Shown here: in pieces, positions 4,380 to 33,142 of the stretch
Layout: each line of letters opens with the position of its first letter
How positions within the stretch are numbered: the stretch's first letter is position 1
Source: Prasinococcaceae sp. CCMP 1430
Taxonomy: Eukaryota; Prasinodermophyta; Palmophyllophyceae; Prasinococcales; Prasinococcaceae
Direction of reading: 5' to 3'
Length of the DNA: 33,142 bases
Assembly (NCBI GenBank): GCA_013416795.1
Contig: RQSC01001393.1
Span: forward strand, 99,721 to 132,862
Program-made: the position numbers and the translations under genes
Notes under the pieces: generated by a model
What the model saw: only the letters and a program-made list of their open reading frames with translations
Databases searched by the model: none
Told to the model about the DNA's origin: nothing

Positions 4380-5334
4380 GCGCGCTCGACTCGCGCGCCG
4401 ATTGTGCTGTGCTGCCCCCCCAACTTTTTCAACCGGAATTCCCGCATGCATTCGCCGCGATTTAGATATGGATTTTCAACTCGCTCTCAATAAAACGGAA
4501 TTATTGTATGAAGTTTCGATGTATTGGTATCAATCGCAACACCAACGCCGCTTCCTTCCTTCCTGACCTCGTTTTTTTTTTTTCGCGCGCCTTTCGACCC
4601 GCAATTCCGTGGTTTCGGGCGCTGCAGCTCGCAACAGCGGCCGCCCGCCGCGCGTTCCGGCCGGTCGCGTTTTCGCGCGAGCGATTCCGTCGCGACTTCG
4701 CAGAGGCGATCGCATTTGGGAGCGGGCCTTCCGCGCTTCCGCCCGCGCACCCCCCTTGCCGAATCGACGGAAGGCCGGCCTCGTTCGCGCGCGCCGGAAG
4801 CTTCCGCTTCCGGCCGGCGTCGCGCACTCCGCCTCGCTCCACGAAAGGCGCGGAAGCCAAAGCCGGCGCTTCTGGAACCCCCGCGCGCGAGCGAGCGCCA
4901 TCTGTCAGTCAGTCAGGGGTCTTTTCGGGTCTGTCCCTCGGTCAACGCGGCGAGGCTTCCGGCCGCGCCCCGGCGCGCGCGTGGAGGGTTTGGGCGGGCG
5001 TTCGATCCGGGTTTGCGGGGGTCGCCTTCGGAGGTCGCGCGCGCGCGGCTGGGATCGATCTACCGCACGATTCGCGGCGCACGTGCGGGCGAGCGCCTGC
5101 GCACGTGGTGCTGCCGGCTGGGGCGATGATCGGACGTGCGGCTGTTCGGCCCCCGTCGGGTGGGGTTGGGCGGGGCGGGTGCGTTTTGACCTGCGCGAAA
5201 GCGGGGGGAAAAAATCGGGCGGGCGGCCGGTGCGCCACAGCGCGCGCGCGGGGGCGCGCAGCGCAGCCCACCCGCCGGCGCGGTCGGCGCGCGACACGAG
5301 CTCACCACACCCATTCGTTGGCATTGGCGATCTC
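4380..5334. other. Intergenic GC-rich stretch, no gene recognised
   Basis: Long overlapping open frames exist on both strands, but their products are Arg/Ala/Pro/Gly-rich with no recognisable domain, and no frame has the third-position GC bias of the real genes. Seen here: AATAAAAC at 4489, a CTTCC run near 4550, a T tract at 4571-4583, CAGTCAGTCAG near 4906, and one exact copy of the motif TGCGTTTTGA (reverse of TCAAAACGCA) at 5180. I see no RNA gene. Confidence 0.6.
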
Positions 5335-5661
5335 ACTCGTACAGTACACATTACAAAGCTTTTGAGAATGACGCTGGACTAGTAGTCTCTAAAAAGTCTT
5401 TTAGTACTAGTCTAAGAAGCTTCTTAGTACTACTCTACTTTGCCAATGTAGACTACAGTAGGACAGTACCACGAACAGTACCATTGATTGGGCCACACGG
5501 CTACTAGTAGAGGCTCCTACCGATCGTTCGGCGACGCATAAAAATGGTCCCAAACTGACGGCAAAGCCAATCGGTGGNAGGCGCCGGCGGCGGCGGATGC
5601 GCCGCCCCTGCACTCGCCGCCGCCGCTGCCGCGCGCGCACCGCGTCGTAGCGACGCTCGAC
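5335..5661 (+). promoter_or_regulatory. AT-rich promoter block of the MATE gene
   Basis: A sharp fall in GC content. It contains palindromes TAGTACTA (5402-5409 and 5425-5432), TAAGAAGCTTCTTA (5413-5426) and CTACTAGTAG (5501-5510); ACAGTACCA twice (5463, 5475); CCAAT-box-like sites at 5443 (+), about 5486 (reverse, ATTGG) and 5567 (+); and a TATA-like GCATAAAAAT at 5536-5545, about 120 bp before the MATE ATG. A similar GCATAAAA precedes the kinase gene. The N at 5578 is in the presumed 5' UTR. Promoter function is inferred from composition, motifs and position. Confidence 0.6.
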
Positions 5662-7107
5662 ATGGCGCCGCCCGCGTCGGAAGTGCCTCGCGCGGAAGGC
5701 GCGCTCGTCCGCGTGTCGGGCCCGCTGAAACCGCGAAAACCGGTGACTGTTCGGTCGTGCATCAGGGACATCATGGCGATCTGCCTGCCGGCCATGGGCG
5801 CCATCCTGGCCGACCCAGTGATGAGCCTCGTGGACACCGCCTGCATCGGCCAGATCTCGAGCGTTCAGCTCGCCGCGCTCGCGCCCAACACGGCCATCTT
5901 CAACTTTGTCTTTGCGGGGCTGTACTTCCTTCAGACGGCCGTCACCGCGCTGTGCGCTCGCGCACTGGGAGTCGGCGACCGGCGGCGAGCGGGCGAGGCC
6001 TTCTGTGTTGGCGCGTTCCTGGCGCTGGCCATCGGCGTCGGCACCTCGGTTGTGCTCGAGGCATTCGCGCCGCAGCTGCTGTCGCTGATGTCGACGTCGC
6101 CGGAGATGATGGAGCCCGCGATGACGTACCTGCGCATCCGCGCATTGGCAGCGCCCGCGGTGCTCACCTGCATGGTGGTTCAGGGGGCGTGCTACGCGCA
6201 GGCCAACGCGCGCGTGCCGCTGGTGATCAACCTGACCGCGGGCGTGGTCAACCTCGTTGGCGACGTGGCGCTCGTGTTTGGTCCGCTGAAGATGGGCATC
6301 GCGGGCGCCGCGATCGCGACGGTCGCCGGCCAGTACGTGGCGGCCGCGCTCAGCATCTGGACGGTTGTCTCGGCGCAGCGCAAGGGCACCGGGCTGCCGC
6401 TCATGCGCCGGCTACCGACGCGGGACGAGGTCGTCCCCTTCTTCCGCATCGCGAGCGTGATGCTCACGCGCATGCTTTGTATCATGGCAGTCTACACGCT
6501 GGCCACCCGCAGCGCGGTGGCGCTCGGCACGCTTCCGGCGGCGGCCTTCCAGGTCGCCCTGGAGCTGACGTGGTTCCTGTCGTTCTTCCCCGAGCCGGTG
6601 TCGATGGCCGCGCAGGCGCTGCTCGCGCGCCTGCCGCCGGGCATCAACTACTCGCGCCAGGTGGGCGTCAAGGCGTGCGCTGTGGTGATCACCGGCGCAG
6701 CGCTCGCGATGTTCCTGGCCGCGGTGGTCACACTGTGCCCCTTGGGCATCTTCACGGGTGACGCGAACGTCGTGGCGGCCGTGGCGACTCTGCGATTGCC
6801 AATGATGGGCGCCGTCGCGCTGTGCTGCATGGCCATGACACTTGACGGCATTTTCATCGGCCTGGGTACCTTTAGCCATCTGGCGTTCTTCCAGGCGGCC
6901 AACCTCATGCTCATGCTGCCGTACTTCATGACGCAAGCCACCACGCTGAGCGCGACCTTCTGGGGGCTCGCCATATTCTTCGCGCTGCGGTGTGTGCAGC
7001 ATGTGGGATTCATGGTGCTGCGACACAACCCGTTGCGCAACCCGCTGAAGAGCACGACTGCGGCCAGCGCGGCGCAGAGCTACGAGATGGCAGGCGCTGG
7101 CATTTAG
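5662..7107 (+). CDS. MATE family efflux transporter (DinF/plant DTX44-45-like), intronless
   Basis: Secondary transporter that exports organic cations, acids or drugs in exchange for H+ or Na+. 481 aa, about 12 hydrophobic segments, close to the usual size. Seen: DPVMSLVDTACIGQISSVQLAALAP in TM1-2 (the typical D-x-x-x-x-G-x-x-s-x-x-x-LAA MATE signature), ATAVNL-type segments (VINLTAGVVNLVGDVALVF), GIAGAAIATVAGQY, and a second-half repeat with AAAFQVALELTWFLSFFPEPVSMAAQALLA. The acidic first-helix Asp of the DinF branch is kept. Start ATG 5662 is the first in frame after the TATA-like box. There is no obvious transit peptide beyond about 30 basic/Pro-rich residues, so plasma, vacuolar or plastid membrane cannot be chosen; the nearest plant relatives are often plastidial. 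Substrate unknown. Confidence 0.9.
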   Translation: MAPPASEVPRAEGALVRVSGPLKPRKPVTVRSCIRDIMAICLPAMGAILADPVMSLVDTACIGQISSVQLAALAPNTAIFNFVFAGLYFLQTAVTALCARALGVGDRRRAGEAFCVGAFLALAIGVGTSVVLEAFAPQLLSLMSTSPEMMEPAMTYLRIRALAAPAVLTCMVVQGACYAQANARVPLVINLTAGVVNLVGDVALVFGPLKMGIAGAAIATVAGQYVAAALSIWTVVSAQRKGTGLPLMRRLPTRDEVVPFFRIASVMLTRMLCIMAVYTLATRSAVALGTLPAAAFQVALELTWFLSFFPEPVSMAAQALLARLPPGINYSRQVGVKACAVVITGAALAMFLAAVVTLCPLGIFTGDANVVAAVATLRLPMMGAVALCCMAMTLDGIFIGLGTFSHLAFFQAANLMLMLPYFMTQATTLSATFWGLAIFFALRCVQHVGFMVLRHNPLRNPLKSTTAASAAQSYEMAGAGI

Positions 7108-7608
7108 GCGCCGCGACGCAGAGGGTATGCCGGGCCGGCTGCCGCAGCACAATGGACACCAACGACGGCATGGCCAGCGGTGAGGTGGGGGGTGGGATGG
7201 CGTGGGGGTGGGGGGATCACCTCGCAGGAGTGTAGCAACCCCCCCCCCACCCACACACGCCCCGTCACCCCTTCCACATCCACGCGCAAATACAGACCGA
7301 GAGACGCCAGGGCGTGCAGACCGCACACGCGCGCACGACCGAAGGCTGCCGATGCAGACGGCACGCGCCCTGGACAACGACTCTCTTTACCTCTAGCTAG
7401 AGATCTATTTTTGTTCGCCATAGAAGACACACAAACACATGCAGGCCTACGACGGTAAATTGCCGATGAAGTCGCACGTATACCACCGACCAATCGCACG
7501 CTGCGCGCCGGACCGCTGCTGCGCTGAGGTGGGTCTGCGAGGCATGAGCTCAAGTGCGTATTCTTACGACTGCGACCACGCCGCGGCCGCGCGGCGAGCA
7601 GGCCGCGT
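7108..7608. other. Convergent intergenic region (3' UTRs), no gene recognised
   Basis: Lies between the stop of the MATE gene (+) and the stop of the DUF3727 exon (-). It holds a C-rich/CA-rich run near 7238-7275 and no canonical AATAAA that I could see. Short open frames on both strands lack coding bias. Confidence 0.6.
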
Positions 7609-8152
7609 TCAGCTCTCCTCGTCGAAGGCGAGGTGCTCTGCCTCGAGCGCCCACTGAATGGCGGGCTCGCCGAGCCTCTCGTCTGGCACCAGCGACATGG
7701 AGCCGTCCTCCGCCACGCTCACCACGAAGATGAGCGCCTCGACGGGCGTAAAGATGGTGTACAGCACGCCGTCTTGCTCGAAACCCAGCAGCTCCACACC
7801 CTCGGCGGCGGTCTCGTCGCCGTCCTCGCCAAGGTCAAGCGACACGATGTCCTCGTCGGAGTAGCGGACCGCGCCGCGCACCGTCAGGCAGTACGCGGTG
7901 TTCTGCACGTACAGCCGCCGCGCGGCCAGGCGCTCCGAAACGAGGGGCAGGATCGCGTCCAGCTCGCCGTCGTTCAGGTCGGTCATTTCGTCTGTCACTG
8001 GGTCATCCGCCAGCACCTCGATGGGGGTGTCGACGGGAAGCAGAAGCGCGTACGGCAGGCCATCGTCGCCGTCGAAGCGCCTCCTCACCACGCACGGCAC
8101 CTCGCGGCCCGTTGCGGGGTCCTTGAGCGAAACCGTCTCTTCAACCACAGCG
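7609..8152 (-). CDS. DUF3727 domain exon (cyanobacterial/plastid-type), no start codon of its own
   Basis: About 180 residues matching the DUF3727 pattern of cyanobacteria and plastid-bearing eukaryotes: VSLKDPATGREVPC at the start, YALLLPVDTPIEVL, DGELDAILPLVSERLA, LYVQNTAYCLTVRG, then GVLYTIFTPVEALIFVV. Function unknown in the family. The exon begins at 8152 right after an acceptor (CCACGCAG). There is no ATG between it and the NOC2 donor at 8328, and the first internal Met is about 50 residues in, so it must be spliced to something upstream. The only visible partner is the last NOC2 exon, in matching phase (AG|C, Ser). No plastid transit peptide is visible. Either it forms the C-terminus of NOC2, or an unseen first exon exists. 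Confidence 0.8.
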
Positions 8153-8328
8153 CTGCGTGGACCGCGGAGCGTGCGCGCGCGCGGCTCGCGCGTCAGCGCG
8201 ATGCCCTCCGCGCGCGGTGCGGTCGAGCGAGGTGCGTTGCGAGCAGGGCTTTCGCGCCGCCCCCTTCGCGTTGAAGGCCCGGAGGCGCGTGGCGCGGCGC
8301 TTGCACCCGCGCGCCCCGCCTCACGTAC

Positions 8329-11148
8329 CTGCCAGCCTCCTCATCCGTCGCCGGCGGCGCCGCGCCCTCCGCCGCCTCGGCCTCGTCGAACATGGCGTCG
8401 AAGTCCACGTCCTCCAGCACGTCGCCGTCCTCGTCGGCCGCCGCCGCGGCCAACTTCTGCTTGACGTCGACCTTGGGCGCCGCGGGCCTCGCCGGCTTGG
8501 CCGCCCTCCGGCGCGCCTTGCCGCCCCGGCCTTCGTCCTCGCCCTCAGCGTCCTCCTCCGAGGGAGGGCCATCCTCCTCGCCCTCAGAGAGGTCGTCGCC
8601 TTCCATCGCGTCATCGCCGTCGTCAACGTCGTCGTCGTCGTCGACGTCGTCGCCGCCGCCGGCGCCCGCGCGCGCGCCCTGGCTGGAGGGCGCGCCGCCG
8701 CCCACGGTGACCTCGTCCACGCTCCCGGCGGCCTTGCGGGCGGCAGCGGCCGCCTTGAACTGGACGTAGAACGCGTGCACGGCCGTCGCCCCGGCGCTCG
8801 CCGCCCTCTTGCCCTTGCCGCCGCGCGCGGCGGCGCGCTTCCCCTCGGCCTCGAACTCGTCGACGCTGTCGGCGTCCTTGGGGGCGAAGCTCACGCCCGC
8901 GCGGCGCGCCTTGACCGCCGCAGCGGTCTCGCCCACGGCCCCGAGCAGGTTCTGCGCGTGCTTCCGGAAGCGCTCCACCGGGCAGCTCTTGGCGAAGCGG
9001 CGCAGCTCGAGCATCGGCGCGAGCGTGAGCTCCGGGAAGGCGATGTGGTACGACCAGGCCGCCAGGTGGCGCGACAGCAGCTCGAAGGTGCGCAGCACGG
9101 CCTCCTCCTGATAGGCGCGCGTCTGGGCGAGGCTCTTGGGCGCCAGCAGCTGGCTGTCGAACACGCGCTGCACGCCGGCGCCGCCGCTGCCCGATCCGCC
9201 CGAGTCGCCGCGCGCGCCGCGCCTCCAGCTGGCGCCCGTGAGCACCTCCACCAGCGGCGCGGCGAGCGGCGCGTAGCACCGCGACGCCTCCGCCAGGTCG
9301 CACAGCGCGCGCACGCAGCGCAGGCGCAGCGGCCAGCGCTGCATGCTCGGCTGCAGGCGCGCGACGCCCGTGAGCAGCTGGCACAACGGGTACGCGAGCG
9401 CGCCGAGCTCCGATTCGTCGGGGTACGCGCACACCGCCGCGGACCACAGCTCGAGCAGCCCGACGTTGCGCCAGCCCTGCGCGAGGCGGGCGTCCGCCTG
9501 CGCGCGCCCCTGCAGCGCCTGGCGCAGCACGTTGGCGCACTCGCGCAGCCCGGCGAACGCCTGCGTGTACGCCGCGTCGAGGTCCTCGCCGCACAGCGCC
9601 ACGACGCACTCGCGCTGGAAGGCAACGCGGGCGACCTCCGACGCCGCCGCAGTGCGCGCGTTGGCTGCGTAGCCGGCGCACATGCCCTTGAGCACGCGGG
9701 GCAGGAAGCCCTCGGGCATGCACAGCGCCTGGGCGTGCAGCAGCTCCCACGCGCAGTGGCGCGCGTGCACGCCCTCGCCGCGCGACCAGCACGCGAGCGC
9801 TGAGGTCATGGACTTGCGCGCGAGGCGCTCGTGCGCGCGCATGAGGGGCGCCAGCCGTGCGAGCGAGCGGTAGGTGAAGGCCAGCATCGCCTCGTCGGTC
9901 ATCTGCTCCAGCGCGTGCACCGCCGACGAGATGAAGCTCTTTGACAGCGGGCCCACCGTCTTCTTCCAGCGCGAGTGCTTCTCGGGCTCCTTCGGGAGCG
10001 CAGGCGCGGCGGAGGGCGCGTCCTTGCCGCCCTTGGCGCCCTTGCCCTGCTGCGCGTGCTTCCCGCCCGTGGCGAACACCATGGCGAAGACCTTGTGCAT
10101 GGAGGTCAACGAGCGCGTCATCACGCGCGTGAAGACCGAGCTCGTGGTGATGTCCACCTTGAGCGACTCCTCGCCCCGCCCGTCCATGTCATCGCCTGAT
10201 CGCCGTCGTCGTGGCCGCGCGCTTCGTCAGCCGACCGCAATGCGCACGCGCGCGCTGCTAGCTCTGCGAGCGCCCGAGCGCGTGTCAAGTCCAGCCGTCG
10301 CTCCTGCTGCCGCCCCCACCGGCCTCCATCCGCCCGCCGTCTGCGGCGCGCCCGCCGGTTTGCGGGCGCGCGTGGCTCAGAAAGTTTGAGGTATATGGTT
10401 ATGTCATCGACATTGCTGCAGCACCTGCTGCTGCTCCGTTGGTGATGCATGTAAAGTGGGTCGTCATTGCCACGCAGAAACACCCGGTGGGAGGGCGCAC
10501 TGAGGGGCCGGCGGACGGAGGGCCAGGGGCACCGAAGGAGCGCGCAGGCGACGGCGGGTACAAGGCTCGCGCTCGCGCGCACGCACCGTGGTAACACGCC
10601 GCGCGGAACGCGCGCACGATCGCGCGCGTCGCGTCCACGTCGCCCGAGCGCATCGCGGCGTCGAACCACGCGTCGACCTGAGACACGGTCACGACGTTGC
10701 GCGGCGCCTTGGGCTGCCGTGGGGGCCGCGACGGGGAGGCGGGTCCGGTGCGAGGGGGCGGACGATGTCAGGCGATCGCCACCTTGACGCGAGGGGGCGC
10801 GCCGCGCAGAGTCGGGCGCAGAAAGCAGACGGCGCGAGCACGCGCACGCACCTCGTCCTCCTCGTCGCCCTCCTCCTCCTCATCCTCGTCCTCCTCGTCC
10901 TCCTCGTCCTCCTCCACGTCCTCATCGCCGGTGCCCTCATATTTGAGAAGGTCGGAGTCGTTCTGCTCAAGAAATTTGTAGAACTCGGGGTCCTTCTTGG
11001 TGAGGGCCTCGAGGTGGCGCACGTGCGCCTCGTCGTCCTCCTCGTCGCTCTCGCTCTCGCTCTCGCTCCCGCTGCTGCTCGCCCCGTCGTCGGAGGCGTC
11101 GGCGTCCGCGTCGAGGAAGTCGCCGTCGAGGAACTCGTCCGCGGACAT
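8329..11148 (-). CDS. NOC2: Nucleolar complex protein 2 (NOC2/NOC2L), 3 exons plus possible DUF3727 exon
   Basis: Ribosome-biogenesis factor; in yeast Noc2 pairs with Noc1 and then Noc3 to move pre-60S particles from nucleolus to nucleoplasm. Exons 10852-11148, 10587-10713 and 8329-10195; introns 10714-10851 and 10196-10586 both keep phase and contain CTGAC. ATG 11148 is the first in its frame (a stop lies upstream at 11308-11310). Family landmarks in order: MSADEFLDGDFLD; HLEALTKKDPEFYKFLEQND; an acidic Glu/Asp run; VSQVDAWFDAAM and FRAACYHG across the exon 2/3 junction; YPLCQLLTGVARLQP; LRLRCVRALCDLA; SYHIAFPELTLAP; LRRFAKSCPVERFRKHAQNL; RRAGVSFAPKDADSVDEFE. An Ala/Lys-rich and very acidic tail follows. 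Reading through the donor at 8328 instead of splicing ends at a TGA at 8193-8195 after a basic tail. Confidence 0.9.
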
Positions 11149-11722
11149 CGACGCCACGCGCGCCTGCTTCTTCCCGGCTGGCGCGATCCCGCCGGACCCG
11201 TTGGCCGCCACGCCCTTGGCGCCCCTGCCGCCCTTCGCCCCCTTGGTGCCCTTGGCTCCCCTGGCGCCCGCGCGCCACCACCTTTGCGCGTCCAGCACAC
11301 CCAACTTTCAATTCCGTCGTTTCGACAACACGACCACGCAGAGCGCACTTTGGGCCAACACCCAATAAAATGTATGCGTTTTGACATTCAAAGTCTCGGG
11401 AGGACGCGTCCTTCACCGTGGAAAACTCGCGTATCGGTAATTTGGGCGGCCGCTGCGCGCGTTCGCGGCGCGCGCCCGCGCGCTCTTTCCCCCCCTTTCC
11501 CGCCAGGCAGAGGGGAAAAGCGACGGGAAATGCTGCAGAGCAATCTTACGGATGAGGTAACTGCGCCTTACCGTAGTTTGTAACGCATTTGTGATGTTCC
11601 AAATGAATTGTCGGAATAGTGAGCCAAGGTCCAGTCTGGGCATTTTTGGCCCTTTTTTTGCGAGGCGAAGCATAAAAAAAAAAAAACGGGCGGGCGCGGG
11701 TGCGGGCGCGGCGCGGCGTGGC
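11149..11722. promoter_or_regulatory. Bidirectional promoter between NOC2 (-) and the kinase (+)
   Basis: About 570 bp between divergent starts, with an AT-rich core at 11300-11690. Seen: TGCGTTTTGAC at 11375-11385 (a copy of the dispersed TCAAAACGCA motif on the minus strand), a perfect 12-bp palindrome AGGACGCGTCCT at 11401-11412, inverted GGTAA/TTACC arms near 11556-11573, and TATA-like GCATAAAA at 11670-11677 followed by an A tract, about 45 bp before the kinase ATG. Function is inferred. Confidence 0.5.
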
Positions 11723-12529
11723 ATGGCACCAGCGAGTGATGGCGATGCCGCCTACCTGCAGCTCTTCTACCAGCAGTTCTACTCGCAGCAGCAGCGGAAG
11801 GCCGCACGGCAGGGGCAGCGCGTCGAGGAGCAGCAGCAGCGGCAGCAGCGGCGGCAACAGCTCCTGCAGCAGCAACCGCGCGGGCAGCAGCAGCAGCGGC
11901 AGCAGCAGCCGCCTCGAGCGCCTTGGGGAGACCCCGGCAAGTTCGCGGGGCGCTCGGTGGCGCGCTCGTACCGCGAGCACCGCTTTTCGTTCGAGGGCGG
12001 CGCGAAGAACGCGCGCTTGCGCTCAGCTCGCGATGGCCGCACCCCGCGCGCGCCGCAGCGCTCGCAGTCGGCCTCGCGTGCGGCGCAGGACTCGCGGGCC
12101 CTGGCGGGGAAGCAGCGCAGGCCGCAGACCGTGACGGCAGCGACGACGGCAGCGGAGAGGCTGTCGCTCGCCAAGGCGATCAAGGGCGCTCGGGGGGGGG
12201 CGCCGGGTGGTGGCGCGTCTGCGAGCACCAACGCGCGCACCGGCGCCGCCGATGGCGAGGTGGCGTACGAACATGTCAACGTCGGTGCGCTGGATGTGGT
12301 GCCTGCTCCCGCGCCTCCGCAAACGCGCCGAAATGGCGAGCGCGCCTTCCTGCGCGCGAGCGTGAGCGTCGCGCCAGCACTCGAGACGCAGGGACAGACT
12401 GGGGCAATCGGGGCGCGCGCCCCCCTGGCCAGGGGCGACGCAGGAAAGCTCGCGCACGGACCGGCCGACGTAGTGGTCACCCATGCGCCAGGGCGCCATC
12501 TGGAGAGCACGCGACATCACCGCGGGTCC

Positions 12530-12567
<38 letters not shown>

Positions 12568-14191
12568 CGCGCTTGGGCAGCAGCAGCTTCACTACCACAA
12601 GCAACAGCACCGTCCGCACAGCCAGCACGAACAGGTGTACGGCCACGCCGAGCACGCCGCGCCGTACGACGCTCGCCAGTCGCACGCGCGCGCACACCGC
12701 GGCCACGCCCACTCCCAGGCCCGCTCGCGTTCGCGCCTGAGCACGTCAGGCGCTGGCATCGCCGACAAGGGTCGCATGGGCGAGCGCGGCGCGCCAGTGA
12801 ATGAGCTGAGCGCCCAATTGCCGGGCTACAAGATCGGCATGTCGATCGGCGAGGGCGGGTTCTGCACGGTCCGCGCCGGGGTGCATCGGCTCACGGGTGC
12901 GGCGGTTGCGGTCAAGGTGTACGACAAGCGCCGACTTGGCGACCCGGCAGACCGCCGTCGTGTGGGCCGCGAGATTCGCGTGCTGAAGCGCCTCGCGTCG
13001 CCGCGCGTCATCCAGTTGCTCGAGGTTGTAGACGCGCCCTCCCGCATGTTCATGGTGATGGAGCGCGCGGCTAATGGCAGCCTGCTAGACTACGTGCGCT
13101 CCCGCAAGCGCCTCGATGAGCCCACGGCGCGCAAGTTCTTTTGCCAGGCGGTCGCAGGCATCGAGTACTGCCACAGGCACCTCGTTGTGCACAGGGACAT
13201 CAAGCTTGAAAACCTGCTGCTCGACGAGAACGACAATCTGCGTCTCATTGACTTCGGCCTGGCAGCCATCCTGCCCCCGGGCCCTCCGAAGAAGCTCAAG
13301 GTGCACTGCGGCAGTCCCTCCTACGCCGCGCCCGAGATCGTCGGAAGGACCCTGTACGACGGCCCTCCGGTTGACGTGTGGTCTCTCGGCGTCGTGACCT
13401 TCGCAATGCTCGCTGGGTACTTGCCCTTTCACGCACGCAACAACAAGCAAGAGCTGTGCCAAAAGATCATGCGCGGCGCCTTCACGCTGCCGGACTTCAT
13501 CTCTCGCGACGCAGCGGATTTGCTGAAGCGCATGCTGACCGTTGACCCCAGCCAGCGCATCACCGTCGGTGGGCTGTGGTCGCACCCGTGGGTCTCGGGG
13601 AGGGACGCAGGTGGCCTGAGCGAGGGTGCGGCGGCCTCGTATGGGGGCGACGCGCGTGGCGCGCGGCCCGGGACGGCTACCGCGGTCATGATGCGAGGCT
13701 CTGCGGCCGATGCGCGCGCGCTCGGATACGGCAGCGGGTGGGCTGGCCTGAGCAGCGGGCTCGGGGCCGAGCCTCGCGACTCGGACGGCACACCACAGGC
13801 CTTGCCAAGCCACGCAGATGCCATTGCAAACGAGGCCCTCGACGAGGACCTCATCCGTGCGCTGGAGGGCTTCGGCTACGAGCGAGGAGCAATCGTGGGC
13901 GCGGTCTCATCGGGCGAGCACAACTACCTCACGGCAAGCTACTGGCTCATGCAGCAGGCGCGCCGGAGGAGCGAAGCGGTCAAGTCGTGGGCGGCGGACG
14001 GGACGCAAGCCCCCTCGGCAGCAATGTCATCTGGCGGTGGCGTCTGTCGCCCAGCGTCGGCGCCCCACGCCGCCGCATCGGCGTCCGCACCGGGAGCAGT
14101 GGCAGAGTCGAGCCGAACGCCTGCATCGGCCGCCGCGGGCCCGCAGTGCGCCGCCGCACACGTGCGCAGCAGGGCCGCGTGGGGCTCGTAG
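11723..14191 (+). CDS. SNF1/MARK-like Ser/Thr protein kinase with C-terminal UBA-like domain
   Basis: CAMK-group kinase, 822 aa, intronless. Residues 1-365 are Gln/Arg/His/Ala-rich and probably disordered, with a CAG-encoded Gln tract. The kinase domain is at about 369-625: glycine loop IGEGGFCTV, K398 (AVKVYDK), HRDIKLEN with D492, DFG at 510-512, CGSPSYAAPE ending at E538. HRD-I-K-x-E-N and CGSPxYAAPE place it with AMPK/SNF1, MARK and BRSK. A UBA-like segment lies near 705-750 (IRALEGFGYERGAIVGAV, YLTASYWLMQQ), as in MARK/BRSK/AMPK kinases. Odd: the activation-loop threonine phosphorylated by LKB1-type kinases is Val (V527, LKVHCGSP where AMPK has LRTSCGSP). ATG 11723 is preferred because it follows the TATA-like box; ATG 11594 in the same frame would add 43 low-complexity residues. 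Confidence 0.9.
12531..12565 (+). repeat. CAG trinucleotide run (poly-Gln)
   Basis: About eleven consecutive CAG codons inside the N-terminal region of the kinase gene, giving an uninterrupted Gln tract followed by more Gln/His. Shorter CAG clusters lie at 11773-11910 in the same frame. Pure codon use suggests replication slippage. Confidence 0.9.
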
Positions 14192-17950: not shown

Positions 17951-18066
17951 CCCATCAAAACGCAGGCGCGATGGGTTGCGCCCGTCAAAACGCAGGCGCG
18001 ATGGAGTGCGCCCATCAAAACGCAGGCGCGATGGGTTGCGCCCGTCAAAACGCAGGCGCGAGGCTG
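17951..18066. repeat. 30-bp tandem repeat in a 60-bp higher-order pattern
   Basis: Units start at 17951, 17981, 18011 and 18041. Units 1 and 3 start CCCATCAAAACGCAGG and are identical; units 2 and 4 start CCCGTCAAAACGCAGG, so the array is an A-B-A-B 60-bp repeat. Units 1 and 3 carry the inverted repeat CCCATC/GATGGG. A diverged fragment with the same core lies at 18240-18253. The 30-bp period keeps frame, but the context is not coding. Confidence 0.93.
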
Positions 18067-18365
18067 TGCACCCCATCAGCTAGAAGCGCGCTGGTTCTCT
18101 CTTCGGGGAAAGAACCACTCTCATCCCGGTTCACTCACGGGAAAATCCCGATCGCGCCGCGCCCGTCCCCGGAGAGGCACGCGCGGACCAGGTTCGTCAT
18201 CCGCGAGCCCGTCGCAGCGCGGGCGCGATGGTGTGTCTGCCCATCAAAACGCATGCGTGCCCCTCCGGGCGAGCTTCGGGGCGCGCGCGGCGGCGGCGAG
18301 TCAGCAGCGGCAGCGCGCGCGGGCCGCGGGGTGGGGTTTGCGGAAGCCGATTTCGGCGCGCGCGC

Positions 18366-18411
18366 TTTTTTTTTGAAACAGACGTTTTTTTTGAAACGGA
18401 CTTTTTTTTTT
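18366..18411. repeat. Triplicated T-tract unit
   Basis: Three runs of eight to ten T, the first two each followed by GAAAC(A/G)GAC: a short 17-19 bp tandem duplication in the approach to the poly-C run. Confidence 0.8.
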
Positions 18412-18493
18412 GGAGGGCGTCGGCCGGTCGGCGCGCGAGGCGGCCTCGCGCGCCGCCGCTCGAGGACGCACACGAAGCGATCGGGCTCTCACC

Positions 18494-19633
<1,140 letters not shown>

Positions 19634-19636
19634 NAG

Positions 19637-21826
19637 GGCCGCCCCGCCTCGGCGGCGGCGCCGCTGCTGGCGACGCTCGTCGTGCGCGACGCGTCGCGCG
19701 GCATCGAGTGGGGGGGCTTCGCCGGCGGCGCCGAGTCGCACGCCGCGGAGCGCGGCGTGGAGGGCGGCCTCGTGCTGGAGTTCAAGCTGCCCGCGCTCGC
19801 CGCCAAGGCCGCCGGCAGCGAGGGGCGGCGGTCGCGCAAGGGCTTCGGGATGGCCGAGATCTCCCTCGACCTGGAGCCCAGCGGCATGTGGTTCGGCGGC
19901 GCCCACATGATCAAGCAGGCGTGGCCGCTCAACGAGGCCTGCCTCGAGGTGGGGCCGTACTACCCCTTCGACAACGGGCCGAACGGCGTGAACACGCTGT
20001 GCGGAAACCAGTGGGTGACCAGCGCGGGCCTGCTCGTGATGGTGGACGCCGACACGCCCTTCCTGCACGTGGGCATGAACGCCATCAACCGCGGCTTCCT
20101 CGGGCTGCGCGCCCTGCGCCGCGCGTGGGGGGTGGGCATCCAGAACGCGGTGCGCGAGGAGCTGCCGCGCATGGCGTCGTGGTCCAACCCGGGCGACGGC
20201 CTCCTGCGCCTGCAGGCGCGCGACAGCTTCGAGTGCAGCCGCGTGCGCCACCCGCTGTCGGACTGGATGCCCGCCGGCCTGGCGGACAAGGCCAAGCAGC
20301 TCCCGCAGCTCGTGGAGCACGTGGCGGAGGAGGTGCTCGAAAAGCTGCCCGGGGAGGTCGCGACGCTCGTGGAGGACGCGCTGCACGCGGAGGACATGCA
20401 GGCCGCCCGCGAGCAGGCCGCCGCGATGACGCCCGCCCCGCCGCAGGAGGGCGAGCTGCTCGCCCGCGTCGTGCTCGCCGCCAAGGCGGACGTGCGCGAG
20501 GCCACGCGCGTGGGGCTGGCGACGCTGCCCAAGCCCTCGCGCCCGCCGCCCGTGGACATGCTGGCGCGGCCCATCTGGACCACGTGGGCGCGCTACAAGC
20601 AGCGCGTCGCGCAGAAGGACGTGACCGAGTACGCGCGCCAGATCTGCGACCGCGGGCTCTCGCACAGCGTCATGGAGATCGACGACAAGTGGCAGAGCGA
20701 GTACGGCGACCTCGAGTTCGACCCCGTCAAGTTTCCCGACCCGAAGGCCATGGTGGACGACCTGCACGCCCGCGGGTTCCTGGTGACGCTCTGGGTCATG
20801 CCCTTCGCGGCGGAGTGCTCGGAGGCGTACCAGGAGGGCGCCCCGAGGGGCTACTTTTGCGGCGGCGACGCCAACCCCCGCAAGGGCCTCAAGGCGGGCT
20901 TCTTCAAGTGGTGGAACTCGCCCGACGTCGCCGCGCTCGACCTGACCAACGACGAGGCCGTGGAGTGGTTCGTCGGGCGCCTGCGGCGCCTGCAGGACAA
21001 GTACGGCATCGACGGATTCAAGTTCGACGCGGGCGAGCCGTGCTTCCTGCCCCGTCGCGTGCAGACGTCCAAGCCCATGGCGACGCCCGTCGAATACACG
21101 CGGCTGTGGGTGACCAAGGTGGCGGCCAACTTCTCGGTGGCCGAGGTGCGCACGGGCCACCGTTGCACGGACACGTCCATCCTCACGCGCATGGGCGATC
21201 GCTTCAGCACGTGGGGCACCGGAAACGGGCTGCGCTCGACCATCCCGACGCTGCTGACCAGCGGCGTGCTGGGCTACCCCTTCGTGCTGCCTGACATCGT
21301 CGGTGGCAACGCGTACTTCGGCTCGTCCCCGGACGCCGAGCTGCTGGTTCGCTGGGCGCAGGCGAGCGCGCTCATGCCGACCGTGCAGTTCTCGATCGCG
21401 CCGTGGGACTACGACGGCCGCGGCGGCGGCGACGATCGCATTACCGGCATCACGCGCGACGCGCTCGCGACGCGTGCGCAGCTGGCCTCGCGGCTGCGCG
21501 AGCTCGCTGCCAGCGCGTGCGACGCCCTCGTGCCGATCGCGCGGCCGATGTGGTGGCTGGCGCCGAGAGACCCGAACACGTGGCCCATCGCCGACCAGTT
21601 CGCCATTGGCGACGACGTCGTCGTCGCACCGGTCGTCACGAAGGGTGGCAGGCAGAGAGACATTTACTTGCCCGAGGGCGACTGGCTGCCGGGCTCGGAC
21701 CCGGAGACGGTCATCGAGGGCGGCCGCTGGCTGCGCGACTTCCCCGCTCCGCTGGAAGAGCTGCCGTGCTTCTACAGGGCGCACTCGGTAGCAGCGGCGT
21801 GCGTCGCCAAGCCGCGACGGCCGTAG
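19637..21826 (+). CDS. GH31 alpha-glycosidase, MYORG/KIAA1161-like, 5' part missing
   Basis: TIM-barrel glycoside hydrolase. Human MYORG is an ER-lumenal, membrane-anchored alpha-galactosidase. Visible: WFGGAHMIKQAWPLNEA (N-domain), MEIDDKWQSEYGDLEFDPVKFP, GFLVTLWVMPF, nucleophile Asp in FKFDAGEP (codon 21026), probable acid/base Asp in RMGDRFSTWG (codon 21197), GLRSTIPTLLTSGVLGYPF, LPDIVGGN, FSIAPWDYD, DDVVVAPVV. The 57-residue gap between the two Asp equals that of human MYORG D463/D520 as I recall it. An insertion of about 90 residues (roughly 20270-20540) rich in Ala/Glu/Leu sits between N-domain and barrel. The C run removes whatever came before, including any signal anchor, so start and N-terminus cannot be given. 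The frame runs to TAG at 21824-21826. Confidence 0.88.
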   Translation, partial: GRPASAAAPLLATLVVRDASRGIEWGGFAGGAESHAAERGVEGGLVLEFKLPALAAKAAGSEGRRSRKGFGMAEISLDLEPSGMWFGGAHMIKQAWPLNEACLEVGPYYPFDNGPNGVNTLCGNQWVTSAGLLVMVDADTPFLHVGMNAINRGFLGLRALRRAWGVGIQNAVREELPRMASWSNPGDGLLRLQARDSFECSRVRHPLSDWMPAGLADKAKQLPQLVEHVAEEVLEKLPGEVATLVEDALHAEDMQAAREQAAAMTPAPPQEGELLARVVLAAKADVREATRVGLATLPKPSRPPPVDMLARPIWTTWARYKQRVAQKDVTEYARQICDRGLSHSVMEIDDKWQSEYGDLEFDPVKFPDPKAMVDDLHARGFLVTLWVMPFAAECSEAYQEGAPRGYFCGGDANPRKGLKAGFFKWWNSPDVAALDLTNDEAVEWFVGRLRRLQDKYGIDGFKFDAGEPCFLPRRVQTSKPMATPVEYTRLWVTKVAANFSVAEVRTGHRCTDTSILTRMGDRFSTWGTGNGLRSTIPTLLTSGVLGYPFVLPDIVGGNAYFGSSPDAELLVRWAQASALMPTVQFSIAPWDYDGRGGGDDRITGITRDALATRAQLASRLRELAASACDALVPIARPMWWLAPRDPNTWPIADQFAIGDDVVVAPVVTKGGRQRDIYLPEGDWLPGSDPETVIEGGRWLRDFPAPLEELPCFYRAHSVAAACVAKPRRP

Positions 21827-25276: not shown

Positions 25277-28200
25277 TCAGCGCGCGCGGGGCAAGCTTGA
25301 GACGTTCGCCTGCGCCTTCGGTGGGGTGGGGTGCGTTGGCGCGCGGGAGATGAGGGGCGACACGTGAGAGCCGCCGCGCATGGCAGCCGGCCGGCTCGCT
25401 GCCACCGTCGGGTTGCCCGCCTTGATCCCCTCCCACGCCCTCGTCTTCCAGTCGCTATGCATCTCGGCGCCTCCCTCGCTCTTGACCTCGGCCTGCAGGA
25501 CGACGCGCGCGCCGTGCGCCGTGCGCGAGATGCAGAGCACTGCCTCTCCGGCGGCCGCGCGCGCGCCCGCGTCGGGATCGCCGGCGCTGAGCGCTCGCAG
25601 CCGCCACACGACGTCCATACCTGAGTCGCACACCGCACGAGCGGCGGTCGAGCCCCCCCGCCCGCCCAGCGTCCCAAGAAAGAACGCCGCGCCCACGCGC
25701 ACCTCGGGATACGTCGACAGCAGCAGCTCCGCCGCACGCTCGTGCGCGCACGCCTCGAGGACCGCGCGCACGCCCTCGCGCGACACGAGCACCTCCGCCG
25801 GCGCTTGCGACACGGGCCGCTCTTCCACACCGCCGTCTGGCACAATGTTGCCCTCACGCGCAATCGCGAGGTCGTCGGCGTCAATGCCGAGACCCGTGCC
25901 CTCCTCATTCCTCGCATCGTCGAAAGCATCTTCGACCCCGGTGGCACCGCCGACAGGCTGGATGATGACGCGCTCCAAGGCTGCCAGCGCAGCCGCGCGG
26001 CATGCGGCCGTGTCCGCGTCTGTCAATGGGGTGGTGACACCCGTGCGCGCGGCCGTCATTCGACTGATGCCCTCGTCGCTGGCGTCGCCGAGCATGCTCA
26101 CAAGAATCCCTACCCACTCGGCACGTGCGATGGAGCCCTCAAGCACCGAGGCCACCTTCCCTGCCAGCGAACGCGCCACACGCGAGGGCGCCCGCCGAGT
26201 GAGCACCATGAGCCGCTGAAGCGCCGCCCCCTCCGCCTCGGCGCTCAGCAGCGCTTCGGCGGCGCTGTCGGTCGACGCGATGGAGATCAGCGCCTGCCCG
26301 GCCGCGACAGCTATGGTGCTGTCCCCGTTGACGCCCAGAGCGTCCACCAGGGCATCCAGCGCAGCAATCTCTTCCTTCGTCGCTCCCCCAGTCGAGGCCG
26401 CCACTGTCTCGCGCTCCACCAGAGTGTTGAGTGCTTGCTCGATGGCCGAGGGGACCACCTGGCGCCTCAACAGCGCCTCAGAGATAAAGCACTTCACAAT
26501 GCTCGGAAGCAGGCGAAGCCACATCAGCAGCCACGCAGCGATGTGTTCGGGTGCGCGTCGCAGTGTTCGCACCGCAAGTGCGCGCCGCTGCTGTTTGGGT
26601 AGTGCTCGCCACTGGCGTAGCCGCTGTACCCGCCCTACCGGTGTCTTCGCCTGCATCGATGAGCGCACCGATGCGCGCGAGCGTCCTGACCCGCGCGCGG
26701 GCAAGCGAGGACCCCTCGGCGACTCGCCCGGCGAATGCGACGGCGGATCGCCAGCGGCACTGCCCGAGCCCGTGCCGCTCTCGACGTCGCCGGCGACATC
26801 CTTTCCGTCGCTGTCGGCGTCGCTCTCTGCAAGGTCGCTCAGATTATCCTCGGTGAATTCGACTCCGCGCTCACGCAGTCGCTGCCGCTTGAACTCACGC
26901 TGCTTCTCACGGTCCTTGGAGCGATAGAAGGCTCGGCGCCATGGGTAGAACGCACGTACGCCTGCGAGCGAGCTTGCCGCGGCCCGTGCACACCGCGCAC
27001 GATGCACGCGGGACGCAGCACGCACGTCGTCGAAGGTGTCGCCGATCAACTCCACCGCAGCCGCGCGCGCATCCGCGAGGTATTGGCGGGCGCGTTCGAC
27101 ATCGCGGCCAGACGGACTCCCAGACGAGCGCGCGCCTGGAGCGATGCCTTCCGCGCGAACGAGGCCTGTGAGTGTCGCAAGTGCACCTGTGCGCGCGAGC
27201 ATATCCGCGGCCTCCTCCCGCGAGTGTGCATGTGCCCCCGACCACACTGTGCGAATCTCCACAACACAGCGATGCATGGCTCGATGGCGAAATGCGAGCA
27301 CGCAGCTGGGTGGCTGTAGGTAAGCGCATGCCACCGGGATGCGCACACGTGCGACCTCGTCTGAGCTTCCCTGTGCGTTCGACGCCAGGTCTGAGTCCGC
27401 GTTGACAATAGGTGGTGGTGGTTCCAAGAACTCAGGGTTGTGCTCGGGTAGACAGTCTTCCGCGTCCACGACCGATGATACATGCGACTGCACGCTCGCC
27501 CGCGCGCGAGGGCCATCGTCGGCCTGTAGGGTGCCTGTCAGGTGCGGTGACATCGGCGACGCTGGCGACATCTCGCTCACAGATCGACCATTCTTGAGTT
27601 GGGTGGGGCGTGCGTGGCCACTGCGGCCGCGAAGACGAGGGCGCGTGTGCGCGGCGGCACTCCCTCGCCGAGCGTCACCAGTGATGGCATCGTCGAATAG
27701 GAGTGTGCACCGTAGACCCACCGCTGCTTGCTCCAGACACGTGGCGCTTCTGACGTCAAATGCGCGCTCAAAGAACGATGTCACGTCATTGAGATCGATT
27801 CCATCCACGCCCCTGAGCGCGTGCTCGACCGCGTGAGCCTCCCAGCTACCAGCAGCACATGCACAGGCGAAGCACGCGACCAATCGTAGACGAGGCGTGG
27901 CGTCGGAGAGCAAATCAGCCAGCGGCATCCCACTTGGGATGCTCGACGAAAGGGCATCCCGATAGGCCTCATCCTCAACATCGCGAAGGTGTAGCTCATC
28001 GCCTATGGCCTCTCGCGCGCGCTTGACTGCCCGCCGGCAGCGGATCGCCGCGACGGCGCCGACGATAGGCGACCCAGTCACAGATATGGCGTAAGCAGCA
28101 CTGCTCACCGCTCCCAACGACAAAAACATCGACAAAAGCTGTGTGGCGAATGCGATGCTGGCGCACCAAATCGCCGCACCAGTGACGGCGCAAGCCAGCT

Positions 28201-31200
28201 CATTCGCGCTTCCGCACAACCCCCTGTACGGCTGCCACGCTGCGGTCACGTTGTAAAGCACGACGGCTGCACACAGTGCGAGGCAAGAGCCGATATTCGC
28301 CCCGAACATAGCTACGTTCCCGGCGAGTAGAAAGCGCACACACACGCTGAGCACGACGAAGTCTGCACGCACGAAAGAGGTGGGGCGCAGCACCCTGTCC
28401 TCCACCGGTAGCACCCTGAGTGCAAGCGAGAGGGAAAACGCCGTCGAAATCAGTGCGCACGGGACCATGAACAGATGTGCACCCTCCCAGCAGCGGGTGC
28501 TAGCGGCGGAGAGCACGAATGCGTACGGCCGGGCCGGGTCGAGATACCTGCACTCAAGTAGGGCGAAGCAGCATCGCCAGAGCGGCAATAGCAAGACGTT
28601 GAGAGCGTGCACACGGAAGATTCTGTCCCATGGCTGCGCTCCCCGCACCGCCGCCACGGCCGCAATCAAGGCCGGCTTCGTTCTCCTGCGCCAACACGAC
28701 ACAAGCGGAAAGGAGTTGCATTTGCCGCCCCGCTTCGTTAAGTCGCCCCCGCTGCCGTCTGCACCAAACGCGCCTTTCGTCGGCGTCTGTACATGTGCTT
28801 GGTCCCCAGTATGGACATAAGCGGCACCTGCAGCGCCGCGCTTGCTGGCGACCCATCGCGCACACACCGCGACCAAACAGATGAGGAAAAAGAGCGCAGG
28901 CAAGAAAAAGACGCTGCCTTCATTGGCGCCATCCCACGATAGAACGCGCATGACGATCAGTAGCGGCGCTGGCGCGTTGTCCACCGATCGGAAGCCACGC
29001 TGCCCGCAGAATGCGATCACGATCTGGAGTGCCACAACGCCATCGGTCACAGCGGTCAGATTCATGGTGACGCGCTGCGGCCGCGTCAGCACCAGGCTTT
29101 GCCGCAGCGCCAGCACGTCTCGAAGGATGTGCGCAGCGCGCAGTGAAGGCAGCGCCACCGGGTCGCGAGCTGCTCGTAGTCTTGTATCTGCTCTCCGTAG
29201 CACCGCCACGAACAGCAACAGCGAGATGATAGGCACGACCAATGCTGCGTAGAACGCGGTCGACACACACGCGGGGTGCCAGTCCACCAAGATGCTCGCG
29301 GTATGCGTCGCCTCCGTGCAGCCATCCGACACGTTGACACTGAGCGCGTACGACCCCACGACGTCAGGGCGGAAGCACATGCGAGACCCGTGGCCTGAAG
29401 TGTTGTGAGAGTCGCCCGGGAGGAAGTGAAGATCGCTCGCCTGTGTGCCGGCGTTGTATCCACCGTCGCAAGCAGCATCCTCGAGGATCGCACCCAGGGA
29501 AGGGGCTTGTAGGCTCCACGTGCTCGCAAAGGGGGCAGCGTCGAGCCACATGAGGTAGCTCATGGCGTCGCCATTTGTGTCAATGGACGTGCTCGCATCG
29601 AGACGAACGCGCGGGAAGCACGTCCTCCCATGCCAATCGAAGTCGAGCGTCGGGCGCAAGTCGGGTACGGGTGGGTCGTTGCACACCGCATCGAGCGCCA
29701 CGAATGCGCTCTGATCGTTGCCCTCGCCCAGTGAGCAATCGAGCGCTTTGTACTCGACCCGGAGGACGTACGAGCCTTCCGTGTCTGGCGTGAAACCGAC
29801 ACTCGCGCGAGAGGACCCGTCTGGTAGGCGCACAGGGTGGCGAACAGGGTCGTGCGTGTAGAACGTGGACGTTGGAGGGGCCTGGTGCACGTACCAGTCT
29901 GGCCACAGCGGCGCCTCGTGCAGCGTCGGGAGAAGCTCGTACAGTGTCCCCTTTTTCGGCTCGGGGCGCTGCATCAGCACGTATGCGGATGCTCCGCTGA
30001 CAGAGTCCTTGCGTTGCGGACTCCTAGTGACGACCGTCGCATCAAGGCCCTCGGAGAGGACCTGCTCCTGCACGCTCTCATCTAGCGTGTCAAAGGTCTC
30101 GAGTGGGTCGCGGTCAATGAAGGCCACAGCTCTGCCGAACTCGCCCACCACGCCGCTGCCGCCCCAGATGGCCTCCGGCTCGGCCAACGATGCTACGATT
30201 GGCACGTAGGAGCAGTTTACGCGCAGCGACACGGTCACGCGCACATAGCGCGTGGGTGCTGCATCCCCCCACTGGTCCTTTGCGACGATGCCGATCGTGT
30301 ACGTGCTCTCCTCTGATTTGTATGGGACGTAGAAGAAAACGCTCGGGGGGGATGCCGTTGGATCCTCGGCGGTGACCTCATCGCGGATGTCCAAACCGTC
30401 GCCTCTCCATTTGTACCCTACTTCGACGAGCCGATTGGTTTCTGGGGTAATCTCGTACGTCACAGGCAGGGCAGGGTCGTCAGGGTCGCTGGCGACGACA
30501 GGGAAGGACACCAAATCGCCCATGTTTGCGTGGGTATGCTCAGGCGGTAGCGGATCACGCCAGACAGGGGCACGCGACTGGTCCAGCACGAGCACGCTTA
30601 CTGCATACGTGGTGTTGGCGCCAAGGGCGTCTGTGAGGCGTATGTCGAAGACGCGCCGCCCGGAACTTTCATAGTGTGCGTACCACGTAAGATTGCCGTC
30701 AGCTGTCAGCACTGCCCCAGCCAGGAGCTCGTCGCCCGGGACGAGCTCGTACTCGAACGCGTCGCCTTCTGGGTCCTCCGCGCGCAGTCGCGCTTCGAGC
30801 CACTCGCCCTCTCGAATGCTCGAAGGTATGCTCTTTTTGTCGAGTTTTGGCGCTTCGTTCGTGTCTGACACCGTAATCATAGTCGTGGCCTCCGACGAGA
30901 CGAGCCCGCGCGCATCTTGCGCGACTACACTGAGCGCAATGGTCGTCACGCCGACTGCGCGACTGACGGCCGTATACGGCACCGTCCATCTGACGCGAGC
31001 GCGACAGAGCATCTGTTAGCGATGGAATCGACAAGAGGCGCGCGCTTGACGTGACGTGCGATGCGCCCGCGCCCCGACGCGGGCAGGGAGGAGCAAGCAT
31101 TGTCGCAGGGCGCGGACGCGAGCATGTTGACCGCACCTGAGCACGCCTGTCACTCCGTTGAGCGTCGAGGACGGCGGCAGAGTCTCAGAAACTGCTGCGT

Positions 31201-33142
31201 ACAACACCGCGTCCTCATCAGGGTCGTACGCCTCGTAGAGAAGGTCCGCTTCGTCGCCCTCGCGCACGCTTAGCTCGGCGACCGGAGTGGCGATCCAGAT
31301 TGGCGGCCGGTTGCGCTCAGCGAGGGACTCGCCCGTCTGGACGTCGACGCCGGTAGACACCGTCGCGGCGATGAGCCCCTCAACAGCGCCTTCGAATGCG
31401 GCCCGAGCAGACGCAATGGCTACGCTGGTGGCGTCGAACCTCTCCCCTTCTCCCTCTTCGTACTCGTACGCGCCAATGGAGGAGTCGTCGTCCTTGGGTG
31501 AGTACTCGAAGATAGTGTCATTTGTCAGCTCAGCGAGACGTTCGAGGCGGTCAATGTGCAGCTCCGCGGCGACCGCGTCCGCCTCGATACCCCACGTGCG
31601 CACTCCTGCTGGCAGCGCGGCTCCGGCTTGCACGGCAAGCTGCACGCCGAGACCGATGCGAGCATACACATTCCCCACCAGACGCGCGTGTGCCACATCG
31701 ACATCCTCCAGCGACAAGTACGTAGCGTCCGCATCAGTCGCGTTGGTGTCACGATCCCTCACAGCTTCGGACGGGGGCGCTGGCTGCTCCGCCGGGGTGC
31801 TCGCACCCCCCTCCGGATCTCCCTCCTCCGTTTGCTCGCACATCACAGAAGAATTGCCGCCCGCTTGTGCCGACGCGTCGACGTCGCACGGTGGCAACGG
31901 CGGTGGTGCGGGTGGACCGTACTTTTCTGGATCCAGAAGCTCGTGCAGGTAGTCGCCGGGCTGCGCGTCCAGCAGCGGGTCGCTCAAGCCGCTGATGACA
32001 AGCGCACCCGCGAGCATGAGCGCCTCACACGCACGAGCGTGTAACTCTCCACCACCGATCACGTACACGACAGCAGGCAGCTGGCCCGCGAGTCCCGCTC
32101 GCGAGGCGAGGAGCCCCACGAGCGACGCACCGTAGGGTGCGGAGGCCGCCGTGCGATCGGAGCTCAGCAGCTCGCCCGCCACCGCGTCGGCGCGCCCGAC
32201 AGCGCCCAAGTCGTACACAAAGCAGCGCGCGCACTGCGCCTGGGCGCCGCCCACGAAGCCGTTCACGTGCCGCAGCACGCGCGCCGAGCTCGCTTCCCCT
32301 CCCGCCACCCCACCGAAGCCATCGCCAACAGCGAGCCCGACCGTCACGACCCCCGCGACGGCGCGCGCCTCACCCGCTAAGTGCCGCGCCAGCTCGCCCG
32401 CGGCGACGCCGGCTGCATACGCACCCGCGTCCTCGCGCAGGATGTGCCACTGCGATCGATAGTAATCGCCGAGCAGCCCGTCCGCTGGCGGCGCGCCCCA
32501 GCCGCCCACCACGAAGAGGTCGCTTGTGCGGATGCCCTCAAGCGAGGCGCCGCGCGGCGGCCCGAACGCGGCGCGCACGCGGGTCGCATCGACCGCGTCG
32601 GCCGCAGCCGCAGCAACAGCAGTGGCATTGCAGCCCTCGAGCGCCGCTGCGTAGCGCGCGTCGCGCGCGGCGTCCTCGCCGCCCTCGGGGACGTCCGAGG
32701 CGCCGAGCGGCGCGAGCAGCGCGTCGGCATCCACTTCAATGGCGTCGCACCCGGCGAAGGCGCACGCCGCGCGCGCGCCCCGAAGAGCCTCCACGGAGGC
32801 CAGCGCGCGCCGCGCGAAGGTGGCATTTTGCGCCTGCATGGGCACGCGCGCGGCGCGCAACCGAGGGGGCGACACGCCGCTCGCGTTGCGGCGGGAGCGC
32901 GCGAGGGGGTCAGCACGGTGCGCCGCCGGCGCCTCCGCACCCGCAGCAGCTCGGACGCGGCGCTCCCCGGCGTGCCAATCCGCGCGCCGCGGAGGCGGCG
33001 CGCTCGAGCTCCCGCTCGACGCTGCCGGCGCCCGCGCACCTCCGAGTATCCTTCCGCCCCGCGTTCCGCTCCCAGCCGCTCGCCGACGACCACGCACAGC
33101 CTGAGCTCGCCGGCCGCTCGCGCGGCCGCCGGCGGCGACCCC
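25277..33142 (-). CDS. Giant receptor-like membrane protein: BMP-type binding domain, cadherin-like repeats, PKD-like domain, multi-TM, ARM-like tail; 5' partial
   Basis: Exons 32941-33142 (open to the edge), 31137-32833 and 25277-30989; introns 32834-32940 and 30990-31136 are in phase with CTGAC and CTAAC. 2536 residues in the window. About 13-560: fold like the BMP/PnrA periplasmic-binding family (ELRLCVVVG, DAGAYAAGVAAGELA, HVNGFVGGA, LPAVVYVIGGG, LVGNVYARIGLGVQ), with an acidic/Pro insert near 375-440. About 575-890: three cadherin-like (dystroglycan-type) repeats (SVREGDEADLLYEAYDPDED, EAPKLDKK with AEDPEGDAFEYELV, APVWRDP with ASDPDDPALPVTYEI). About 1080-1200: PKD-like (RVRLDASTSIDTNGDAMSY, SYALSVNVSDG). 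About 1205-1620: seven to nine hydrophobic helices, with VLYNVTAAWQPYRG between two of them. About 1620-2536: cytoplasmic tail with Ser-rich linkers and Ala/Leu helices like ARM/HEAT repeats. Many N-glycosylation sequons precede the first TM. The signal peptide must lie beyond the edge. Probably a surface receptor; ligand unknown. Confidence 0.8.

Follow-up and report, generated by a model that had tools for sequence, protein, structure and literature searches.

The gene and its reading frame

The window analysed here, the whole stretch of 33,142 nucleotides from Prasinococcaceae sp. CCMP 1430 (contig RQSC01001393.1, positions 99,721 to 132,862), carries at its far end a gene on the minus strand, the focal gene, in which a frame at 25277-31015 (1912 amino acids) stands in phase with one at 31016-33142. 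Its product is a real, large and modular protein with two relatives, here called C11 and C68. A cadherin/immunoglobulin (Ig)-like stalk and a membrane block are supported; the head in front of the stalk and the tail behind the membrane block are not. The features of the gene and the positions of the relatives are collected in Table 1. Residues are numbered after the 2536-residue version of the protein, and the genome searches cover the 145 contigs of the assembly, 24,521,569 bases in all.

Table 1. Features of the focal gene, listed from its 5' side in window coordinates, and the two related loci in their own coordinates
Feature	Position	Strand	Basis
First readable coding piece, frame 1, open toward the N gap	33040..33141	-	Codon score
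Doubtful intron, donor 33039 (206 bases) or 32940 (107 bases)	32834..33039	-	Both joins keep the frame
Exon: head region without a recognised fold (to ~31310) and beginning of the cadherin-like stretch	31137..32833	-	Open frame, codon score positive at both ends
Intron, 147 bases, GTGCGG...CTAAC...CAG, in-frame stop inside	30990..31136	-	Sequence, codon score, He_PIG match over the join
Last exon: remaining stalk, membrane block and tail; stop at 25277-25279	25277..30989	-	Open frame
Cadherin/Ig-like repeats, residues 577-890, intron inside	30218..31306	-	Pfam on the spliced stretch
PKD-like region, residues 891-1205; final part related to both paralogs	29273..30217	-	BLASTP, held-out profile
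Membrane block, nine hydrophobic segments, residues 1212-1615	28043..29254	-	Hydropathy, alignment A2, held-out profile
Long tail, ~917 residues, partly low-complexity, partly helix-rich by eye	25280..28030	-	Pfam, ARM/HEAT tests
C11 paralog, L006 (C11:200500-210400): PKD-like repeats, membrane block, tail with sub-threshold HEAT	1876-7745	+	At least two exons
C68 paralog, L010 (C68:181000-190900), extends into L011: signal-like start, PKD-like repeats, nine hydrophobic segments, long tail	4180-9900	-	Single 1973-codon frame

An earlier note on this DNA had read the gene as one frame with two in-phase introns, of which one stands and the other is doubtful. The intron at 30990-31136 has CTAAC shortly upstream of its terminal CAG and carries the stop that separates the two frames; the codon score in the frame of the gene is 0.274 and 0.213 on its two flanks and -0.126 inside. 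The best stretch of the Pfam family He_PIG covers residues 588-673, with the splice falling in residue 633. Since this match crosses the splice, both sides belong to one protein and the intron is supported. The intron at 32834-32940, by contrast, follows an exon whose last 101 bases (32941-33041) score -0.047 per codon in the frame used and so lack a coding signal there. The rival donor at 33039, whose GTGCGC is much like the GTGCGG of the good intron, keeps the frame with the same acceptor. A scan of joins for this intron counted 89 that keep the frame, GC donors included. At the very edge (33042-33142), frame 1 is the only one with a positive codon score (0.062 per codon), and the guanine plus cytosine (GC) content by codon position agrees with that frame. 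The protein measures 2536 residues with donor 32940 and 2503 with donor 33039. A run of 3034 N begins at the base right after the edge of the window, so no start codon was assigned within it.

It is very improbable that the gene model is an artefact that fuses two separate genes or stitches together a decayed one. The doubtful first join speaks for such an error, but the good intron lies inside the He_PIG match, the membrane block lies in the same exon as stalk sequence, and C68 has its ectodomain, membrane block and tail whole in one frame of 1973 codons.

Stalk, membrane block and two related proteins

Once the good intron is spliced out, residues 558-896 exceed the cut-offs of three Pfam models: Big_9 (expectation value E 6.1e-10, 40.3 bits, cut-off 23.6), He_PIG (1.5e-8, 35.4 bits, cut-off 24) and Cadherin_4 (5.4e-6, 27.3 bits, cut-off 25.1), which bears out the cadherin-like repeats of the earlier note. 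The unspliced exons gave sub-threshold matches only (Big_9 0.028, Cadherin_4 0.14, and NCBIfam tand_rpt_95 at 1e-4, under its cut-off). On the spliced stalk the Cadherin model PF00028 stayed under its cut-off (14 against 28.8 bits), and no PDB sequence matched at E 10. Cadherin/Ig-like repeats are common adhesion modules. With its three Pfam models over cut-off, the stalk resembles bacterial-type He_PIG/Big_9/Cadherin_4 repeat proteins; unlike these, the focal gene bears introns and encodes a multi-helix membrane block. A plasmid scan returned three stretches, all within the cadherin-like part (E 4-9), and pattern-based scans found no relatives in viral contigs or genome contigs. Two giant frames at other loci (L099 on C113 and L097 on C130) have Big_9-type matches, one of them over the cut-off; by eye, one of the frames is RCC1-like and the other FG-GAP and haem-peroxidase-like.

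Between the cadherin-like repeats and the membrane, a PKD-like domain had been proposed. The final part of this region is related to both paralogs by BLASTP (E 8.6e-10 for C68, 2.5e-4 for C11) and by the held-out ectodomain profile, but the protein itself has no PKD match in the Pfam scan. We assign it as PKD-like on the strength of the paralogs, whose PKD matches lie below the cut-off of 23.5 bits (17.1 in C11, 16.8 in C68), and of profile A3, which had just two matches among PDB sequences (E 0.56 and 0.58), both to ColH chains that we take to be PKD domains. Genome-wide, PF00801 found C68 alone, under its cut-off, and K319L-like_PKD in C68 was likewise below its own.

The polytopic membrane region that had been proposed is borne out by hydropathy, which marks nine hydrophobic segments in the membrane block at a threshold of 1.35, the same as was used for C11 and C68. 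The matching blocks of the paralogs have nine segments in C68 and eight in C11, both with a few extra outside the block. In the focal protein the scan also marks five stretches within residues 225-656, together with 1669-1687 and 2116-2134, and these were excluded from the membrane helix count. Between segment four and the start of segment five, the invariant columns of alignment A2 form a conserved C.Y...P...W.G.H pattern. The corresponding profile, from the membrane loop region, matched uL30m alone among PDB sequences (E 0.29), which we treated as uninformative. The family 7tm_3 is absent from the Pfam matches of the protein and, at E <=10, from the genome, although little weight attaches to the search of the genome, whose controls were found in 2 of 14 genomes, none over the cut-off. 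Together with the count of nine segments, this leaves standing the remark that the helices do not obviously match class C G-protein-coupled receptors (GPCRs).

The three proteins find one another in part. A genome search with the focal membrane block listed C11 (E 3.3e-5) and not C68; the search with C11 retrieved C68 at 1.4e-8 and the focal protein at 3.7e-5, and that with C68 retrieved C11 at 2.8e-9 and not the focal protein. Ectodomain searches reach C68 both from C11 (1.9e-4) and from the focal protein (1.1e-4). In held-out tests, a profile made from two members was scored on the third and on 300 shuffles. For the membrane block, the focal protein, C11 and C68 reached 27.6, 59.1 and 30.1 bits against best shuffles of 6.0, 7.3 and 14.4; for the ectodomain, the same three reached 32.8, 35.7 and 10.3 bits against 7.0, 5.9 and 3.5. 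By alignment, the three are similar in the last PKD-like part and from helix four onward; helices one to three correspond by position only.

Judged by these similarities, the three related proteins appear to make up a small modular family with a common PKD-like repeat and common later helices behind differing front ends. Both paralogs share with the focal protein the PKD-like region beside the membrane, the membrane block and a long tail, and each has a hydrophobic N-terminal segment of signal-peptide type. Unlike the focal protein, neither has a cadherin/Ig-like Pfam match, and held-out tests show no recognisable likeness between the tails. The remark that no described receptor has the full domain order thus loses some of its force, because three proteins of this genome have the unit of PKD-like repeat, membrane block and long tail, behind varied front ends.

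A further candidate member, C59, was rejected: its likeness to the focal tail (83% over 46 residues) comes from a stretch of 116 identical bases that lies next to a single N and probably marks an assembly edge. In the window this stretch occupies 26100-26215, and its copy in C59 ends at the N. Five sub-threshold names in C11 (Sema4F_C, PP4R3, Gp53, Proteasom_PSMB and stn_TNFRSF12A) were set aside as chance.

Head and tail

The earlier note had placed a bacterial-type BMP binding domain in the head, and this was not borne out. The head exon (31139-32833) had no match in Pfam or NCBIfam at E <=10, a range in which the HMMER filters discard most matches above 0.1, and had no phmmer match among PDB sequences; in the genome it found itself only. 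PF02608 found nothing in the genome, in a search that was positive in 7 of 14 control genomes. We also assembled a set of 74 bacterial and archaeal BMP-type proteins, out of 80 fetched as the best of 117, having dropped six with open frames of more than 520 residues. A hidden Markov model of these 74 gave the head -1.4 bits. A chain of 20 conserved BMP blocks scored 26.1, where five BMP members inside the profile score 320-542; 160 of 500 shuffles did at least as well, as did 8 of 12 control segments. The single-sequence AlphaFold2 model of the head exon (predicted local distance difference test, pLDDT, 39; predicted template modelling score, pTM, 0.25) is uninformative on a two-lobed periplasmic-binding fold.

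That the head is nevertheless a BMP/PnrA-type periplasmic-binding domain sensing a nucleoside-like solute is improbable in our judgement. The weakly suggestive result in its favour is an hhalign comparison with the BMP set, which aligned a 56-column stretch in residues 198-274 (P 0.035) with the landmarks E-G...G and GF..Ga. With the first exon revised, the score was 22.9 (P 0.034); 2 of 200 shuffles reached at least 23.0, and all six control segments were weaker (P 0.12-0.86). Residues 161-500 alone gave P 0.021, and removal of an acidic/proline insert gave P 0.0087, both choices having been made post hoc. By eye, a later stretch, VVYVIGGG...GALVISGLSDP, resembles the next BMP landmark. Against this stand the lack of any Pfam, NCBIfam or PDB-sequence match, the empty genome search with PF02608, the negative profile score and the block chain at shuffle level, as well as the flanks of the aligned stretch, whose scores were reached by 44 of 150 shuffles before it and by 27 and 51 of 150 after it (two cuts). 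On present evidence the BMP label should stay out of the annotation. Other sub-threshold Pfam and NCBIfam names in the focal protein (UBM, DUF2586, Sde0182_C, STALD and phosphonatase) were set aside as chance.

Most Grl receptors of Dictyostelium, which are family 3 / GABA-B-like GPCRs, reportedly carry a BMP domain (PMC1885808, PMC10445921); the former paper gives seven helices for GrlJ and, in seven table rows, lengths of 755 to 816 residues. The focal protein may share with the Grl receptors a solute-binding-type ectodomain ahead of membrane helices, the BMP domain being unconfirmed in it. It differs from them in its nine segments, its lack of 7tm_3, its cadherin/PKD-like stalk and its ~900-residue tail.

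Nor could the ARM-like character claimed for the tail be confirmed. Pfam returned nothing under E 0.01 on 25277-28021, and its HEAT model reached E 6 in the focal tail and 0.017 in the C11 tail, each under the cut-off. Typed consensus units were scored against 500 shuffles. The focal tail was reached by 1 shuffle for ARM and 52 for HEAT, and the stalk, a negative control, gave the same two counts. The C11 tail was reached by 14 shuffles for each unit, and that of C68 by 127 for ARM and 3 for HEAT; among the other negative controls, the head was reached by 235 (ARM) and 282 (HEAT) and the C68 ectodomain by 289 (HEAT). Among PDB sequences the best match of the focal tail was Raptor 1 (E 0.52, residues 639-791), followed by a MarR regulator at E 1.8. 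The C11 tail matched an Fe-hydrogenase at E 0.23 and, at E 0.44, BRE1, presumably neither an ARM nor a HEAT protein. A BLASTP match of 80 residues between the focal and C11 tails (E 4.9e-4) suggests that a distant relation between these two may exist.

In the remainder of the window, eight frames were scanned with Pfam. Neighbouring frames match the families Noc2 (8193-10187, minus strand), protein kinase (11591-14191, plus strand) and MatE (5662-7107, plus strand), while five of the eight gave nothing at E 0.001. The GC content per kilobase runs from 62 to 91%, and 18001-20000 is extreme in composition (GC 0.84-0.91, GC skew about -0.6). Single N bases at 1201, 3966, 5578, 17057 and 19634 are perhaps contig joins. 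Past the N run that adjoins the window, the next frame (L002, 3467-5272, plus strand) has by eye a PHD-finger-like Cys/His stretch.

A candidate adhesion-type receptor

We put at about one half the probability that the focal protein is an adhesion-receptor-like surface protein, one of three related proteins in the organism, whose modules stand on a nine-helix block that signals to the tail. The earlier note had described a sensor combining ligand binding with an adhesion stalk. The multi-helix surface protein with an adhesion-type stalk is supported (Pfam matches, nine segments and the signal-like N-termini of the paralogs), whereas the ligand half rests on the unsupported BMP domain. The topology, ligand, signalling and scaffold role that we infer for the protein would be as follows. 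A secreted N-terminal module without a recognised fold would be presented on the cadherin/Ig-like and PKD-like stalk, which in turn would stand on a membrane block of about nine helices followed by the long tail; the tail would be cytosolic if the N-terminus lies outside and the helix count is odd. The outer modules could be bound or pulled by a partner cell, the matrix, a surface sugar or a solute, and the membrane block would relay this to the tail, whose role would be that of a docking scaffold.

Several points weigh against this proposal. The missing 5' end of the gene would also hold any signal peptide. Pfam matched the protein to no kinase, cyclase or GPCR family that would speak directly for signalling. 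The model of the membrane block built from three aligned sequences (pLDDT 40; best Foldseek E 0.48) is uninformative as to its fold. The membrane-block link to C68 is indirect (E 0.002 for the pair, with C68 unlisted in the focal search), and in the held-out tail tests the real sequence ranked among the best three in 0 of 3 cases.

A purely structural adhesion or cell-covering protein, with a stalk that binds partner cells or matrix and a membrane block and tail that only anchor it, would account for the cadherin/Ig-like repeats and for the absence of a signalling family from the Pfam matches. We consider this rather unlikely, as a multi-helix block and a tail of ~900 residues exceed the needs of an anchor and both paralogs have both. 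The third possibility, which we hold to be quite improbable, is a mechanosensitive or ligand-gated channel whose stalk gates the membrane block. Polycystin-1-like proteins carry PKD-like repeats ahead of a multi-helix membrane part, and the PKD-like/cadherin-like ectodomain of the focal protein ahead of many helices follows this layout; but no PLAT, GPS or PKD-channel family is among its Pfam matches at E <=10. The Foldseek search, made on a poor model, found nothing and says little here.

Returning to the adhesion-type receptor, we also raise, more tentatively and from sequence comparison, the possibility of a lineage-own family of nine-helix receptors, in which the PKD-like region and membrane block would be kept while front modules are exchanged and intracellular tails differ. 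The front modules are cadherin-like repeats with a head of unknown type in the focal protein, a LamG-like region in C68 (by eye only) and more PKD-like repeats in C11. To our knowledge, receptors of the adhesion type that carry cadherin-like repeats are not something green algae are known for. In openly licensed PubMed Central full text we found no paper on green algal receptors of the PKD/cadherin type, Prasinoderma and Chlamydomonas included, by a literal word matching that likewise missed the relevant PMC1885808 for BMP and Dictyostelium. If the proposal is true, and if the host is a Prasinoderma-like alga, it would mean that adhesion-type receptors arose independently near the base of the green plants. 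The three-member modular family would open a route to studying the sensing of neighbours or surfaces by a very small alga.

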